From a candidate division WWE3 bacterium (lineage in GTDB: Bacteria; Patescibacteriota; WWE3; UBA101185; UBA10185): 36,326 nucleotides of DNA. This document shows positions 26,578 to 33,939 of this stretch, piece after piece. The position numbers and the translations under genes are program-made. The notes beneath the pieces were generated by a model. It saw only the letters and a program-made list of their open reading frames with translations, did not search any database and was not told where the DNA came from. The DNA lies in NCBI GenBank assembly GCA_012798315.1, contig JAAZNL010000032.1:1-36326 (forward strand), in the 5' to 3' direction. Positions within the stretch are counted from its first letter, which is position 1. Each line of letters opens with the position of its first letter.

Positions 26578-27135
26578 ATGATGGTACTTATAGAACGAAA
26601 TACAGGTCTGTGGCAATATTTACCAGACGAGATACAAGGTTTAATCGCTGATGGTGAAACTTTGGTGAACTTTGTTTTATCTAATAATAAGAGTGATGAA
26701 ATATCGGATTTTTCTTTTATGGTTTTTCCTTTTGCAAAAGCTTATGAAGGATTTTTAAAGAAATTATTTTTGGATATCGGAATGATTAAACCTGATGAAT
26801 ATTATGGTGATGATATTAGAATCGGTAGAATTTTAAATCCCAGCTATTTAGCAGAAAAAGGAAATGTGTTTGCCAAGTTCTGTGAAGGGACTCCCGATAA
26901 AAAGGAATTGTCTCAAAAATTATGGGGAGCGTGGAAACAGGGGCGTAACTCTGTTTTTCACTACTTTCCTCACAACTTTAAAAAACTCGATTTTGAAGAA
27001 GCTATGGATCTGATTAGAGGGTTTGTAACCGCAATGGAAGAAGCCGTGGTTAATTGCAATATACCTAAGGAAAAACTTAATCCTATAAAAAGCGCATATC
27101 TGGATAATATAAAGATAGATACATTAATGGACTAA
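26578..27135 (+). CDS. HEPN-like protein, possible RnlA/RNase LS-type toxin domain
   Basis: 'FPFAKAYEGFLKKLFLDIG' and RNSVFH (R-x4-H), typical of HEPN ribonucleases. Confidence 0.65.
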   Translation: MMVLIERNTGLWQYLPDEIQGLIADGETLVNFVLSNNKSDEISDFSFMVFPFAKAYEGFLKKLFLDIGMIKPDEYYGDDIRIGRILNPSYLAEKGNVFAKFCEGTPDKKELSQKLWGAWKQGRNSVFHYFPHNFKKLDFEEAMDLIRGFVTAMEEAVVNCNIPKEKLNPIKSAYLDNIKIDTLMD

Positions 27136-27173
27136 AAAAAGGGACTCAGCCTATATTTACTAGGTAAAGTCCC
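27134..27173 (-). terminator. Rho-independent terminator for the minus-strand gene 27187-27447, possibly bidirectional
   Basis: Minus strand GGGACTTTACCTAGTAAATATAGGCTGAGTCCC followed by TTTTTTT. Confidence 0.75.
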
Positions 27174-27186
27174 CGGAGAAAAAAAA

Positions 27187-27447
27187 TCAAAGCCAGAATT
27201 GAACGCCAATGGTTTTCTTGAGAAGCAACACCAAAGTCGCAATTACGACCAACGTACCCCAGAAATAAGCGCCGATTCGTCTGTGTTTTAAACCGTAGTA
27301 CCAATGCGCGGCCTCAACGAGAGATATTCCAATTGCGACCTGTTCCAACTCGGGGGTGGGGGTAGTTGCGAAAAAAGCTGTTCCCAATGTAGCCAAATAC
27401 AGCGCCACTGCAACCAAGAAATACACTATCTTCTCGAGCGGTGACAT
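27187..27447 (-). CDS. Small hypothetical membrane protein
   Basis: 86 aa with hydrophobic segments; AAGGAAAGGAAGG Shine-Dalgarno-like sequence just upstream of ATG. Confidence 0.65.
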   Translation of the reverse strand: MSPLEKIVYFLVAVALYLATLGTAFFATTPTPELEQVAIGISLVEAAHWYYGLKHRRIGAYFWGTLVVIATLVLLLKKTIGVQFWL

Positions 27448-27491
27448 TTAAGCCTTCCTTTCCTTTTGCCTTTTTGAGTTATAATGACCTA

Positions 27492-28589
27492 GTGGAGACG
27501 ATTATACCAGAAAAAAAGAAAATTGCTCTAGGTCTAAGCGGCGGTGTGGATTCCTCTGTTGCTGCATATTTATTGAGAGAACAGGGATACGATGTTACCG
27601 GAGTTTATATTCAGTGTTGGGAAAAGGAATCGGACGGGTGCGCATCTGATGAAGACAAAGCCTACGCGTTACAGTCCGCAGCTAAATTGGGCATTAAATT
27701 TACGCATTTGAACTTTATTGATCGTTATAAGAGTAAAGTAATAGAGTATTTTTATAGCGAATATGCTGCCGGTCGAACACCAAACCCCGATGTTATGTGT
27801 AATAAGGAAATTAAGTTTGGAATATTTTACGATTGGGCAATGGAACAAGGCTTTGACTATGTGGCCACAGGCCATTATGCAAGAATATCTAAAGACGTCG
27901 AAGACCCTAGTACTACAAAGTATCTGTTAAAAAAAGGATTGGATCAATCTAAGGACCAGTCTTACTTTTTGTACTTACTAGACCAAGAACATTTGGCAAA
28001 GACGTTACTGCCCATAGGGGATTTGCAAAAAACTGAAGTCAGACAAATTGCCGCAAGAATTAAACTACCAACAGCCCAACGCCCTGACAGTATGGGAGTA
28101 TGCTTTATAGGTGAAGTAGACATTAAAGATTTTCTTAAACAACGTTTGCCGGAAAAGACCGGAAATATCGTAAATAAATCCGGAGAAGTGATAGGAACAC
28201 ACGAAGGTTCGTGGTTTTATACTATCGGCCAGCGACACGGTTTTAAAGTGACTAAATATTCAGGAAAACCAATGTATATTATCGGCAAAAATAGCGAAAC
28301 TAATGAGCTGTTAGTAGGATTTGAAGAGGATGTCTACTCTGATTCTTTTACTGTTATAAATCCTCATTGGATTTCCCAAAGTCCGTTTAAACCAAATATT
28401 AGGCAGTTACATTGCACTGTTCGGATAAGGCATTTGGGACAGATCTATGATTGCGTTGTTGGTTCCGGAGAAAATCTGACTATAAAGACAGAAAAACCCG
28501 TATTTGCGATTGCCCCCGGACAAAGCGCTGTGTTCTATGATGGAGATACCGTGTTGGGTGGGGCTATTATTGATAAGGTTGCGTATTAA
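27492..28589 (+). CDS. mnmA: tRNA-specific 2-thiouridylase MnmA
   Basis: LGLSGGVDSSVAAYLL, TPNPDVMCNKEIKFG, DQSYFLYLL, 'DSMGVCFIGE'. Likely GTG start around 27492. Confidence 0.94.
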   Translation: METIIPEKKKIALGLSGGVDSSVAAYLLREQGYDVTGVYIQCWEKESDGCASDEDKAYALQSAAKLGIKFTHLNFIDRYKSKVIEYFYSEYAAGRTPNPDVMCNKEIKFGIFYDWAMEQGFDYVATGHYARISKDVEDPSTTKYLLKKGLDQSKDQSYFLYLLDQEHLAKTLLPIGDLQKTEVRQIAARIKLPTAQRPDSMGVCFIGEVDIKDFLKQRLPEKTGNIVNKSGEVIGTHEGSWFYTIGQRHGFKVTKYSGKPMYIIGKNSETNELLVGFEEDVYSDSFTVINPHWISQSPFKPNIRQLHCTVRIRHLGQIYDCVVGSGENLTIKTEKPVFAIAPGQSAVFYDGDTVLGGAIIDKVAY

Positions 28590-30888
28590 AAAGAGAATTT
28601 TGTAGCAGTAGCTTACTGCGCCACTTACCTGACGTATCAAGTCTAATTTGAATCTCTTGTATAGGTTCTTCGACTCCCAACGATGAAATTGACTTAAATA
28701 GTAAGTTGTTTATTCCTTCATTAATGAACTCGATCGGTTCTGTGTAAAGTTTCCATTGCTGCGTGTCATTTATAGAATAGAGTATTTTGGCATTAGAACT
28801 GTTTGTTTCCAGGTATATTATCGGTGGGGATCTAAACCATCCGTTTTCACTTTCACCTTGGATAGTATTAGTTGTGTGTGGTTTTTGCTCCTCAAATATT
28901 TCTCCAAAGACTGCGAAATGACTTAAATGGTCGGTTTCAAAGGTAACGGAAAAATTGGTTACATCAAATGTCGATTCCAGAGGGTCCCATGCATTCGAAA
29001 TTTCGTTCCAAAAATAAGCAGACAAAGTATTTAGATCGATAAAATCAGGGATTAAATCTGTCAAACTATAAGTAAAAACTAATGGGGCGTTGAAATTGGT
29101 AACCCGCTGGCCGAAAATGTCTTCCGTTTCAATCAAAAATGAAGTTGAGGGTATATAAAAAAGCAATGGGTTTTTAGGTCGTACATAGTTTTGCACGGTT
29201 ACAGTAACAGGTTGATTAACATTATCCGGTGGTAATCGTATGTGCAAATTATTAAGGTTTACCTCAGCCGGGTACTTCCAAGAAATTCTGGATGAAATAG
29301 TGTTTTGATCTTCGTTCCACAGATAGGTGCTTTCTATACCTTTATACTGTCCCAAAGCATACAGCGGCCATGGATCCGAATTTTTGTCACTTTGCCAACC
29401 GAATGGGTCCGTCAGTCCCCAGGGGAATTCGTCGGAAAATGACGCATTGTCGTTTTTATCCCTGGCTGATACAAAGTGCAAATGCGGTCCGGTCGTTCTT
29501 CCCGTCATCCCCACCTTGCCTATTACCTGACCACTTGTTACAAAAACGCCATCTGTTGTTGTAATAAGGTCTTCGTCTTGCAGGTGCATATACTGTGTTT
29601 GATAACCGTTCTGGTGATTTATTACTACTGTATTTCCGCAGTCTACGCAGTATTTATAGCTGGCCATGCCGTCTGCAACTGCCAGTATAGGAGTCCCATA
29701 CGGAAGTTTAAAATCAGTACCATTGTGAGACGAGTAGTATAGTGTGGGTTCTTTTTCTCTTTGTCCTAAAAAATTATAAGTTGTGTTACCGGCTTCTAAC
29801 GGTTCGGCAATACCCGATGCCATTAACGGGTACTCATGATCAAAGTAAGACGTAATATAGTCAATTAGGGGCAAAGTTGTATTGGACCAAGGTCGGGTAA
29901 ATATCGGATTCTTTTTGAAGGTTCTGTCCATATTTGCAGTTTTTAAACCTTCTCCGTTTACGCTTATTATTGCTAAGTCTGGTGAAGAATAAACCAGCTC
30001 TAAATCATTTACTCTTGTGCTAGTGTCTAAAGTTACTATTCCAAAAGATTCCCATGTTTGACCCAAGTTGCAGCTTTTGTACAAATTATAGCTCGTGCTG
30101 TCCGCTTTACCGGCGAACAAACAACCTTTAAAAAACTTCAATCCCCCTACAGATTCTTGACCAAAGTTATAGCTTTTTTCCCACGATGTACCTTTGTCTT
30201 TTGATATATATATTCCGTCGGAGGTGAACGTTCCGACAGCAATAGTGTCTTTATCATTAGCCATGTGTTTAATGTTTTTTCCGTTTAACGGTGTAACCGT
30301 TTCCCAATTTATTCCGTTATCCACGCTTTTATATGTTTGATTTGAGGTACTCGCTATTATTACATCTGAGGTTGCTAAAATGGCTTGTATATGTGGACCG
30401 TAGACGCCCGATCCTATTTTTTGTAGCCACGATTGTCCCTGATCTTGCGTTATCCATAGGCCATGGTTTGTAGTGCCTACATATATAGTGTCGTTTAGAA
30501 TAGCCACAGCTGAAACGTTATACGTAAATCCCATGCTTTCCCAGACCGACAACTCTTCTCTCAGTATAAATAAATTTCCCTGGTTATTTTCCGTGTAGTA
30601 TGTACCCGCGACTACTAAATTTCCGTTAGTATCTAAACACGATATTCCCCGTCCTTCCAGGCCAAATTTAGCCCATGTTTGCCCATAATCTTTGGTTATG
30701 TAAATGCCGTTGTATGTTTCCGGTCTGTTTCTGGTGTCCAATTCACCCGCCATAATGCCGTAAGAGGTTTTTTCAATAGATGAAAAGTAAATACCCTCCA
30801 AAGATGCAGGTTCCCATGTTTGCGCATACGAAAATATTGGAAATACAATAAAAAAGAAAGTAGAAACAACAGAAAATGTCCGTTTCAT
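28567..30888 (-). CDS. Secreted M23-family (LytM) metallopeptidase with N-terminal BNR/sialidase-like repeats
   Basis: Signal peptide; repeats such as 'KDYGQTWAKFG', 'QDQGQSWLQKIG', 'SVDNGINWETV', 'KDKGTSWEKS'; M23 motifs HNGTDF and GPHLHF. Confidence 0.9.
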   Translation of the reverse strand: MKRTFSVVSTFFFIVFPIFSYAQTWEPASLEGIYFSSIEKTSYGIMAGELDTRNRPETYNGIYITKDYGQTWAKFGLEGRGISCLDTNGNLVVAGTYYTENNQGNLFILREELSVWESMGFTYNVSAVAILNDTIYVGTTNHGLWITQDQGQSWLQKIGSGVYGPHIQAILATSDVIIASTSNQTYKSVDNGINWETVTPLNGKNIKHMANDKDTIAVGTFTSDGIYISKDKGTSWEKSYNFGQESVGGLKFFKGCLFAGKADSTSYNLYKSCNLGQTWESFGIVTLDTSTRVNDLELVYSSPDLAIISVNGEGLKTANMDRTFKKNPIFTRPWSNTTLPLIDYITSYFDHEYPLMASGIAEPLEAGNTTYNFLGQREKEPTLYYSSHNGTDFKLPYGTPILAVADGMASYKYCVDCGNTVVINHQNGYQTQYMHLQDEDLITTTDGVFVTSGQVIGKVGMTGRTTGPHLHFVSARDKNDNASFSDEFPWGLTDPFGWQSDKNSDPWPLYALGQYKGIESTYLWNEDQNTISSRISWKYPAEVNLNNLHIRLPPDNVNQPVTVTVQNYVRPKNPLLFYIPSTSFLIETEDIFGQRVTNFNAPLVFTYSLTDLIPDFIDLNTLSAYFWNEISNAWDPLESTFDVTNFSVTFETDHLSHFAVFGEIFEEQKPHTTNTIQGESENGWFRSPPIIYLETNSSNAKILYSINDTQQWKLYTEPIEFINEGINNLLFKSISSLGVEEPIQEIQIRLDTSGKWRSKLLLQNSLFNTQPYQ

Positions 30889-30965
30889 AGCACGATTATC
30901 TTTGGACTTTTACTTACCATCAAGGTATCATCTTCTCATCGTAGTAGAGATTATCTGTTTTTTCT

Positions 30966-32276
30966 ATGAATATACGAACTGTAATTTCAGAATTAACTAA
31001 TAAAAATAAAGGTTTAAAGAAGGCCGAGATAGAAGGGTTGCTGGCAATTCTCTCTAAAAATTCCGAAGGATTATCGCTTGCTGATTTAACAGGTCTAACT
31101 GGAATACCAAAGGAAACGCTAATAACCTTTAAGGAGTCTGTATCGGCTTATCTGGACAAAAGCTATGACGGTTTTCTTTTGGATTCCGAATACAGAGGAC
31201 CTATTAAAGAGTTTTCTTTAAAAGAATATCCCTGGTCGCTAGTTACAATAGAAGATTCAGAGATAGAGGAGATTATTTCAAAATTACGAAGTGATTCCGG
31301 TTTTAAGCCAAAACGCGAACTGGATCAGTTTATTGCTACCGCCAAAACGAGCGCTGCCAAAGCTTCACTAGCTAAAATCAAAGGGCTCGCCGACGACAAA
31401 AACATCGCATTCGTAGGAGACGATGATTTTGTTTCTTTGGCGATGGAGCGTTTGGAATTAGGCAATTCTTCATTTACCGTATTCGATATAGACCCCGAAC
31501 TGTTAGAAGAAATACGAGCTAGGAGTACAAAAAGTATCCAGACAATACAGCATGATTGTAGAGTTACGCTGCCAAGTCTTTACAAAGGTAATTTCGATTT
31601 GGTGATCACGGACCCTCCTTACACTTCAAATGGTGTGAAAATATTTTTGAATCGGGCAGTAGAATTGTTGGGAAAAGTCGACGTAAATGCGAATAAATAC
31701 ATAATTCTTTATTATGTCAACAGCTTTAAAACTCCGGAAAAGACATTAAAGATTCAAGAAATCATCAGCGACATGAAGCTCTTAATCGAAGATAAAATAG
31801 ATAAATTCGCCAGATATACGGGAGCGGATTCTATGGGAAATGCCAGCTCAGCTTATATCCTGCGGGTTACACCTTTTTCGCATACCCTCGATGTGGCAGA
31901 CGACTCGGGAGTATACACATACGAAAATCAAAAAACAGAAAAGTTTCCTTACGTAGACCATTACACATTTAAGTTATTCGATGTGGACGAAAAAATGGTG
32001 CGTTCGCGCGCAAATCTGCTCAAATCTTTAAGCAGGTTCTGTGATATGCACAAACTTCACGTGGTAGACAGGGTAATGACCGAGTTTAAAGGCGGCGGAA
32101 TTACCTTAACATTTGTTTTGAGCGCCTCAAATCTCACAGTCCACACCTGGCCAGAATTTAAGGCCATTCATATGGATTTAATAACTTGCACACCGATATA
32201 CAATAAGGATAATTTTAGAATGTCATTAACCAAAATATTTAACGCGAGAGAAACCGAAATTAGAAAGATAGAATAA
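30966..32276 (+). CDS. Fusion: BpsA-like aminopropyltransferase (N4-bis(aminopropyl)spermidine synthase family) plus C-terminal AdoMet decarboxylase (SpeH-like)
   Basis: N-terminal wHTH; 'IAFVGDDDFVSLAM', 'FTVFDIDPELLEEI', 'FDLVITDPPYTSNGVKIFLNRAVELLG'; C-terminal 'SASNLTVHTWPEFKAIHMDLITC' matches SES-H-x3-HTWPE...D.FTC of AdoMetDC. Confidence 0.85.
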   Translation: MNIRTVISELTNKNKGLKKAEIEGLLAILSKNSEGLSLADLTGLTGIPKETLITFKESVSAYLDKSYDGFLLDSEYRGPIKEFSLKEYPWSLVTIEDSEIEEIISKLRSDSGFKPKRELDQFIATAKTSAAKASLAKIKGLADDKNIAFVGDDDFVSLAMERLELGNSSFTVFDIDPELLEEIRARSTKSIQTIQHDCRVTLPSLYKGNFDLVITDPPYTSNGVKIFLNRAVELLGKVDVNANKYIILYYVNSFKTPEKTLKIQEIISDMKLLIEDKIDKFARYTGADSMGNASSAYILRVTPFSHTLDVADDSGVYTYENQKTEKFPYVDHYTFKLFDVDEKMVRSRANLLKSLSRFCDMHKLHVVDRVMTEFKGGGITLTFVLSASNLTVHTWPEFKAIHMDLITCTPIYNKDNFRMSLTKIFNARETEIRKIE

Positions 32277-32289
32277 GCTTTTTAAAGCA

Positions 32290-32318
32290 TTGACTTAGCT
32301 CTGAAATATTGGTATCTT
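32290..32318 (+). promoter_or_regulatory. Likely rRNA promoter
   Basis: TTGACT, 17-nt spacer, TATCTT, about 185 nt upstream of the 16S gene. Confidence 0.55.
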
Positions 32319-32502
32319 GCATCTTGCCGAGGTTTGCGATAGTTGTTTTCCAATCCAAAATTCGGTATATTTTTTTCTCGAACATTGATAACTGAATAGG
32401 TCACAATGAGCCATAAATTAGTTACCTTTACTTTTATAAGTAAAGGAATAGACTCGCAATCTTTGATTTTTTTTGAGATTCGTAAGACATGAAGAATATT
32501 TT

Positions 32503-33939
32503 TCTGAGAATGTGATCCTGGTTCAGGGTGAACGCTAGCGGCGTGCTTAAGGTATGCAAGTCGAGCGGTGTTTGTAGCAATACAGGCACAGCGGCGAACG
32601 GCTGAGTAACGCGTTGGAATCTACACCTTACTTGAGGATAGCCCCGGGAAACTGGGAGTAATACTCAATGTGGTCGCAAGACCAAAGACGCAAGTCGGTA
32701 AGGGATGAGCCTGCGTCCTATCAGGTAGTTGGCGGGGTAAATGCCCACCAAGCCTATGACGGGTAGCTGGTCTGAGAGGATGACCAGCCAGAGGGGCACT
32801 GAGACACGGGCCTCACTCCTACGGGAGGCAGCAATCGGGAATCTTGCACAATGGGCGAAAGCCTGATGCAGCGACGCCGCGTGAAGGATGAAGGCCTTCG
32901 GGTTGTAAACTTACATTAAGAAGCACCGGCTAACTACGTGCCAGCAGCAGCGGTCATACGTAGGGTGCAAGCGTTACCCGGATTTATTGGGCGTAAAGAG
33001 TTCTGTAGGCGGTCGTGTAAGTCAGAGGTTAAATATCCCGGCTTAACTGGGAAGCAGCTTTTGATACTGCGCGACTAGAGATGGTTAGGGGGCAGCGGAA
33101 CGTACGGTGGAGCGGTGAAATGCGTTGATATCGTACGGAACACCGAGGGGGAAGCCAGCTGCCTGGGACTTATCTGACGCTGAGAGACGAAAGCGTGGGG
33201 AGCGAAACGGATTAGATACCCGTGTAGTCCACGCCGTAAACTATGTCTGCTAGATGCCTGCGCAAGTGGGTGTCGAAGCCAACGCGTTAAGCAGACCGCC
33301 TGGGGAGTACGGTCGCAAGATTAAAACTCAAAGGAATTGGCGGGGACCCGCACAAGCGGTGGAGCATGCTCTTTAATTGGCTGATAACCCAAGAACCTTA
33401 CCAGGGCTTGAAATGTATGTGGTAGGAACGCGAAAGCGCGACGACCGGCTTAAACTCCGGAGCATACACAGGTGTTGCATGGCTGTCGTCAGCTCGTACC
33501 GTGAGGCGTACCCTTAAGTGGGTTAACGAGCGCAACCCTTATTGTTAGTTGTATCACTCTAACAAAACTGCCATCGTAAGATGGAGGAAGGTGGGGACGA
33601 CGTCAAGTCGGTATTGCCCTTACGTCCTGGGCTAGAAGCATGCTACAATGGCCGGTACAGCGAGTTGCAACACAGCGATGTGAAGCTAATCTCTAAAAGC
33701 CGGTCCCAGTTCGGATTGAAGTCTGCAATTCGACTTCATGAAGTTGGAATCGCTAGTAATCGTGGGTCAGACACACCACGGTGAATACGTTCTCGGGTCT
33801 TGCACACACTGCCCGTCACGCCAGCAAAGCTGGGGCCACCTGAAGTCTCATGTAAATGGGCCCAAGGTGGAATCAGTGATGAGGGTGAAGTCGTAACAAG
33901 GTAGCCGTAGGGGAATCTGCGGCTGGATCACCTCCTTTC
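32503..33939 (+). rRNA. rrs: 16S ribosomal RNA
   Basis: GATCCTGGTTCAGG near the 5' end, ACTCCTACGGGAGGCAGCA, ATTAGATACCCGTGTAGTCC, AACTCAAAGGAATTGGCGGGG, AAGTCGTAACAAGGTAGCCGTA, GGCTGGATCACCTCCTTT 3' end. Ends approximate. Confidence 0.97.

Follow-up and report, generated by a model that had tools for sequence, protein, structure and literature searches.

The locus described here raises the question of what a protein that joins a branched-polyamine synthase (BpsA)-like part to an S-adenosylmethionine decarboxylase (AdoMetDC, SpeD)-like part might do in a WWE3 bacterium, and whether this joining is real. Branched-polyamine synthases have been described as enzymes of thermophiles, and WWE3 is a candidate phylum of tiny, reduced and host-dependent bacteria. 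The gene lies in the window, i.e., the whole stretch of 36,326 nucleotides analysed (contig C62), which belongs to a genome (G000) of 0.9 Mb in 71 contigs that is 98.6% complete. A preliminary description of this DNA had claimed BpsA-like and AdoMetDC-like domains in one intact ORF. The ORF, its coordinates and both Pfam domains agree with this claim: positions 30966-32276 of the forward strand hold a single intact reading frame with an ATG start, encoding 436 amino acids, and the signatures that had been named could all be located (GDDD at residues 151-154, DPPYT at 216-220, HTWPE at 393-397, Cys408, and Ala387-Ser388 at nt 32124-32129). The features are as follows.

30966..32276, + strand: bpsA-speD fusion gene, 436 aa; single ORF with Pfam BpsA_C and AdoMet_dc; fusion in 26/29 same-family genomes
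30966..31250, + strand: N-terminal helical (putatively winged-helix-like) domain, residues 1-95; helices in the AlphaFold2 model, counterpart in thermophile BpsA
31305..31856, + strand: BpsA_C Rossmann aminopropyltransferase-like domain, residues 114-297; PF01861 E 1.8e-27, Foldseek 5xnc E 2.9e-20
31416..31427, + strand: GDDD motif, residues 151-154 (D153/D154 = Tk-BpsA Asp159/Asp160); D153 and D154 invariant in 27/27 fusions
31611..31625, + strand: DPPYT motif, residues 216-220 (D216 = Tk-BpsA Asp225); invariant in 27/27 fusions
31911..31955, + strand: junction and linker, residues 316-330; natural end of BpsA (YT) followed by a linker rich in E/D
31959..32270, + strand: class 1b AdoMetDC (SpeD)-like domain, residues 332-435; PF02675 E 3.6e-16, fold match to 1vr7/1tlu
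32124..32129, + strand: predicted self-cleavage site A387|S388; S388 invariant, opposite T. maritima S63 in the alignment
32142..32144, + strand: His393 (= T. maritima His68), 26/27 fusions; first residue of the HTWPE motif (residues 393-397)
32187..32189, + strand: Cys408 (= T. maritima Cys83), 26/27 fusions

Profile and structure searches of the two halves, which had been proposed as a check, confirmed both identities. BpsA_C (PF01861) scores 96.6 bits against a gathering cut-off of 27, and AdoMet_dc (PF02675) 59.9 bits against a cut-off of 25 (E 3e-17 when the C-terminal part is searched by itself), while a Pfam match to the SpeE-type family Spermine_synth (PF01564) is absent from the protein. 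With the B. subtilis-type equivalog TIGR03330 (NCBIfam SAM_DCase_Bsu) the SpeD domain reaches 47.6 bits, below the cut-off of 75.65, and is thus not filed as that equivalog. Sequence matches in the PDB are the BpsA enzymes of T. kodakarensis (Tk-BpsA) and T. thermophilus for the first part and the AdoMetDC of T. maritima for the second. For an AlphaFold2 model built on an alignment of 27 sequences (mean pLDDT 87.9, pTM 0.65), the nine top-ranking Foldseek matches were BpsA-family structures (5xnc_A, E 2.9e-20), and the T. maritima enzyme (1vr7/1tlu) matched it with a target-normalised TM of 0.79 and an rmsd of 2.0 Å. The N-terminal domain also has its counterpart in thermophile BpsA, as positions 4-278 of our profile A2 align to residues 23-311 of 5xnc_A. 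Residues 322-326 of the linker are modelled with pLDDT below 50. In patescibacterial BpsA proteins without a fused SpeD, the chain stops at the "IYT" where the SpeD linker starts or, mostly, a few residues past it, which indicates that the BpsA domain has been kept whole in the fusion.

Like the BpsA enzymes of T. kodakarensis (5xnc) and T. thermophilus (6j27), the window protein has the Rossmann and N-terminal folds, the GDDD and DPP motifs and an equivalent of Tyr290. It differs from them in being fused to SpeD, in having no free acidic C-terminal tail, in its low identity (∼18% in structural alignment) and in reading DPPYT where Tk-BpsA has DPPET and the Thermus enzyme DPVEG. Ten residues of the BpsA part are invariant in the 27 aligned fusions (G151, D153, D154, D176, D216, P217, P218, Y219, T220 and Y284). 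By alignment, in which the chain numbering of 5xnc_A equals that of Tk-BpsA plus 20, D216 and Y284 correspond to Asp225 and Tyr290, which belong to the acceptor site of Tk-BpsA, where Asp159/160 position the aminopropyl group of decarboxylated AdoMet (dcAdoMet) (PMC12979288).

The SpeD domain shares with T. maritima SpeD (1tlu/1vr7) the whole fold, the equivalents of Ser63, His68 and Cys83, and the WPE motif, but it is fused at its N-terminus, has Thr for Ser at the GVS position and reads xSN rather than ESH at the processing site. Ser388 is invariant (27/27), as nearly are His393 and Cys408 (26/27 each) and P396 (25/27). The preceding residue varies freely (N 19, S 3, T 2, Q 2, A 1; n = 27), residue 389 is N in 25 of the 27 aligned fusions, and other BpsA-linked SpeDs read QSH, ESS, SSH or SSF. 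The earlier view that bacterial enzymes have E-S-H and that A-S-N is peculiar does not hold up: the A-S-N of the window is a single member's form of the xSN that runs through the clade and is the norm in WWE3. The suggestion that maturation may differ is likewise weakened, since the fusions retain Ser, His and Cys and related SpeDs differ among themselves in the residues around the site. Two members (L057/L008 and L080/L032) carry Arg in place of His393 (SVRTWPE) or Phe in place of Cys408 (LIFSP); their SpeD domains are possibly inactive, or else the sequences contain errors.

The preliminary description had proposed a search for the same architecture in CPR genomes, and it was found across the WWE3 family and in a Shapirobacterium. 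The fusion is present in 26 of 29 genomes of the same family and in three other genomes of the same class, and at 30 loci on separate contigs, the window's own counted, it forms a single uninterrupted reading frame. This conservation rules out an origin by chance or by an assembly join. BpsA scored above its cut-off in only 31 of 384 Patescibacteria genomes, mostly of the window's WWE3 family, and a SpeD-family protein did so in 69 of the 384. An HMM scan of the architecture at 79 named loci found the fusion in all 28 loci L054-L081, in one Shapirobacterium (L082) and in Erysipelothrix anatis and E. inopinata (L085, L094). In other Shapirobacteria bpsA and speD are separate genes in the same order, overlapping by 8 bp or 1 bp; in Bipolaricaulota they are adjacent, and in Bathyarchaeota, Pacearchaeota and Phyllobacterium their order is reversed. 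The WWE3 fusions form one clade in the trees of both domains (SpeD 99/95, with rough support values from 122 columns and 83 rows; BpsA 100/100), and in both trees the L082 fusion stands beside the split pair L084 and the Erysipelothrix fusions stand elsewhere, which points to at least three fusion events. The fusion is thus real, conserved and recurrent, and joins two known enzyme types. Some genomes carry further copies: G020 (C11, L038) has a split bpsA-speD pair in addition to the fusion, G029 (C51, L193) a second SpeD lacking the Ser/His motif (EHARVALQASGE), and G176 (C1) three BpsA and three SpeD matches.

In G000 the sole BpsA and the sole SpeD both reside in the fusion gene, which makes each the obvious partner of the other. 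We consider it probable (roughly 0.75), on the basis of the sequence, that the protein is a bifunctional aminopropyl-transfer enzyme, in which SpeD would make dcAdoMet and the BpsA-like part would transfer its aminopropyl group to an amine. The established parts of this reading are the identity of both domains, the intact catalytic residues, the repeated origin of the fusion and the lack of the tested putrescine routes. The C-terminal domain would cleave the chain at A387|S388, yielding a chain of 387 residues and a pyruvoyl chain of 49 residues in which S388 becomes the cofactor, and the pyruvoyl SpeD domain would then decarboxylate S-adenosylmethionine. The BpsA-like domain would bind dcAdoMet through D153/D154, take its aminopropyl group and pass it on to an amine, for which a polyamine imported from the host or the environment is the likeliest candidate. 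With such a cleavage the mature enzyme would consist of two chains held together, so that the term "single polypeptide" would fit the proenzyme only. While we infer the cleavage, both activities and the import of the substrate, the identity of the acceptor and the branching of the product are the least certain parts of this scheme. The earlier idea that donor production and aminopropyl transfer are coupled gains support from three separate fusions and from the overlapping or adjacent bpsA-speD genes; channelling of the donor within the fusion is unproven.

Import of the acceptor, also suggested previously, is supported by the metabolic setting. PLP-type ornithine/arginine decarboxylases gave no match in G000 and its relatives (PF02784 in 18 genomes; PF01276, of another fold, in 13), nor did the pyruvoyl arginine decarboxylase (ADC) PF01862 in 13 genomes, whereas control genomes were matched by all three. 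The acceptor would therefore be imported or made by unrecognised enzymes. Similarly, bacterial-type AdoMet synthetase was absent from all 18 genomes tested, including G000, and the archaeal type was found only in G022 and G030, so that most of these genomes would depend on AdoMet from outside or from unrecognised enzymes, and it may be imported as well. This lack contrasts with the AdoMetDC-like domain encoded in the window itself. A 230-aa protein following a serS-like gene (L048, G000:C48:6735-7427) matches Spermine_synth with E 5.6e-8, and similar weak matches occur in most WWE3 genomes tested. Spermidine synthases carry GGGDG and DSSDP at the sites where this protein reads GLGGGT and VDIYVG. 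We rejected it as a second SpeE route since it lacks the usual catalytic Asp motifs and has METTL13 as its best PDB match; a SpeE with those motifs was not found in G000.

Whether the product would be branched is a separate matter. The preferred substrate of known BpsA enzymes is spermidine, which they branch at N4, and in Tk-BpsA a flexible acidic C-terminal tail carries the aminopropyl group (PMC12979288). Patescibacterial stand-alone BpsA proteins of the DPPYT type lack this tail, ending at or soon after YT. The linker of the WWE3 fusions often reads YTYExxKEEKFP (E320 and E325 in 19/27 each), and the spacing from Y297 to E320/E325 equals that from Tk Y316 to E339/E344, although another comparison suggests a different place for Y316. 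The linker as a substitute for the acidic carrier is a tentative idea at most: several divergent members have no acids there, and the equivalence of Y297 and Y316 is not secured by the alignment, which breaks off ahead of this site. Among the 23 genomes with DPPY-type BpsA, whose completeness is unstated, SpeD was detected in 12 of the 15 with DPPYT and in none of the 8 with DPPYA (Myxococcota and kin), which ties the DPPYT proteins to dcAdoMet and indicates that the wider BpsA family need not use it throughout and may hold another chemistry. The Myxococcota-type DPPYA homologues (L091, L097-L099, L101-L105, L109-L112), whose genomes gave no SpeD match where searched, may use another donor. 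Given the absent acidic tail and these SpeD-less relatives, a branched polyamine as product is unproven. It is quite possible, without being our expectation, that the bifunctional enzyme acts as a general aminopropyltransferase in place of the missing SpeE and makes linear products only, e.g., spermidine from putrescine or spermine/thermospermine from spermidine. The want of a catalytically complete SpeE in G000 and of the Tk-BpsA tail would fit such a role, but the fusion retains the acceptor-site residues D216 and Y284, and the characterised BpsA enzymes act on spermidine by N4 branching.

The gene neighborhood is conserved as well. In WWE3 (window 26578-33938; L054-L081) a 185-aa ORF, an mnmA-like gene, a 773-aa protein on the opposite strand, the fusion and the 16S rRNA gene follow one another. 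Of the 20 loci that have at least 1.6 kb of flank, 18 show the 16S gene downstream of the fusion and on its strand (22 of 24 when short flanks are counted). In the window the gap is 223 bp, and the fusion may be co-regulated with the rRNA operon. Just past the fusion stop, a promoter-like TTGACT-17-TATCTT with a TG (32290-32318) is a candidate rRNA promoter; promoter-like matches in the region are within chance (7 vs 4.9, sd 2.3). In L067, L070, L077 and L079 the 16S matches downstream of the fusion are split into separated pieces, suggesting insertions or introns.

A different reading of the SpeD domain arises from SpeD homologues acting as arginine or ornithine decarboxylases (SpeDA/SpeDC), which are described as widespread, including in CPR (PMC10407285). 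The fusion would then make putrescine or agmatine instead of dcAdoMet, and G000 indeed has no other ornithine or arginine decarboxylase of the tested families and no AdoMet synthetase that we could find. The same source reports a proline that is fully conserved in AdoMetDCs and not in ADCs (PMC10407285). Since the characterised ADC of pelagiphage HTVC201P has HSWDE where AdoMetDCs have HTWPE, we take this to be the WPE proline (P396 here), which is kept in 25 of 27 fusions and missing from phage ADCs. Other Patescibacteria SpeDs, among them that of a WWE3 genome without BpsA (G019), have HTF(P/A)K and cluster with the phage ADC, though at a weak fork (99/63). The fusion SpeDs lack this motif of the putative SpeDC group; together with other BpsA-linked SpeDs they form a supported clade next to T. 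maritima, and in this tree, which holds no verified SpeDC sequence, they are placed apart from the clade of the phage ADC. For T. maritima we used what we take to be its SpeD sequence, the aligned core of which agrees with the PDB alignment. Because the fusion's SpeD is the only one in the genome, such a change would leave BpsA without a source of dcAdoMet, and together with the tree this favors an AdoMetDC and makes the arginine/ornithine decarboxylase unlikely.

Doubt could also be directed at the other half, as DPPY resembles the motif of amino-methyltransferases, METTL5 and RsmD appear among the weaker profile and Foldseek matches, Myxococcota relatives have no SpeD, and the gene adjoins 16S rRNA in most relatives with enough flank. 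The BpsA-like domain might accordingly be an RNA or protein amino-methyltransferase of METTL5/RsmD-like fold, with some other role for the SpeD part. This is very unlikely: its BpsA scores are far above those of any methyltransferase, the GDDD loop, the binding site for the aminopropyl portion of dcAdoMet, is retained, the fusion with SpeD has been repeated, and SpeD accompanies most DPPYT-type proteins. The DPPY motif and the conserved place beside the 16S rRNA gene would also fit a variant in which DPPYT-type BpsA uses the dcAdoMet of the same protein to aminopropylate a non-polyamine acceptor, e.g., an RNA base, a proposal that we regard as highly improbable.

The bifunctional aminopropyl-transfer enzyme would have relatives in concept. 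SpeD-SpeE fusions with both activities are known from Ca. Pelagibacter (PMC11107197) and from bacterial ancestors of animal spermine synthase (PMC12803844). They unite a donor-making enzyme with a transferase in the same way, but their SpeD is N-terminal and their transferase SpeE-type, whereas here SpeD is C-terminal and the transferase BpsA-type. Published SpeD-SpeDC fusions (PMC10407285, which also notes SpeDC in CPR) likewise contain a SpeD-family domain; the window protein, in contrast, has no second SpeD domain and lies on the AdoMetDC side. We found no published BpsA-SpeD fusion and no polyamine work on WWE3/Katanobacteria in the open-access literature, absence there being no proof, and a 2026 review of branched polyamines mentions neither fusions nor Patescibacteria (PMC12979288). 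The combination is thus apparently unreported.

It would be a second architecture merging AdoMetDC with an aminopropyltransferase, reached at least three times, and as a small, expressible protein it is suited to probing channelling as well as what the acidic tail does. For the WWE3 family, in which the fusion is near-universal while the tested putrescine routes and mostly also AdoMet synthetase are missing, it suggests that scavenged polyamines are remodelled by a two-step enzyme.
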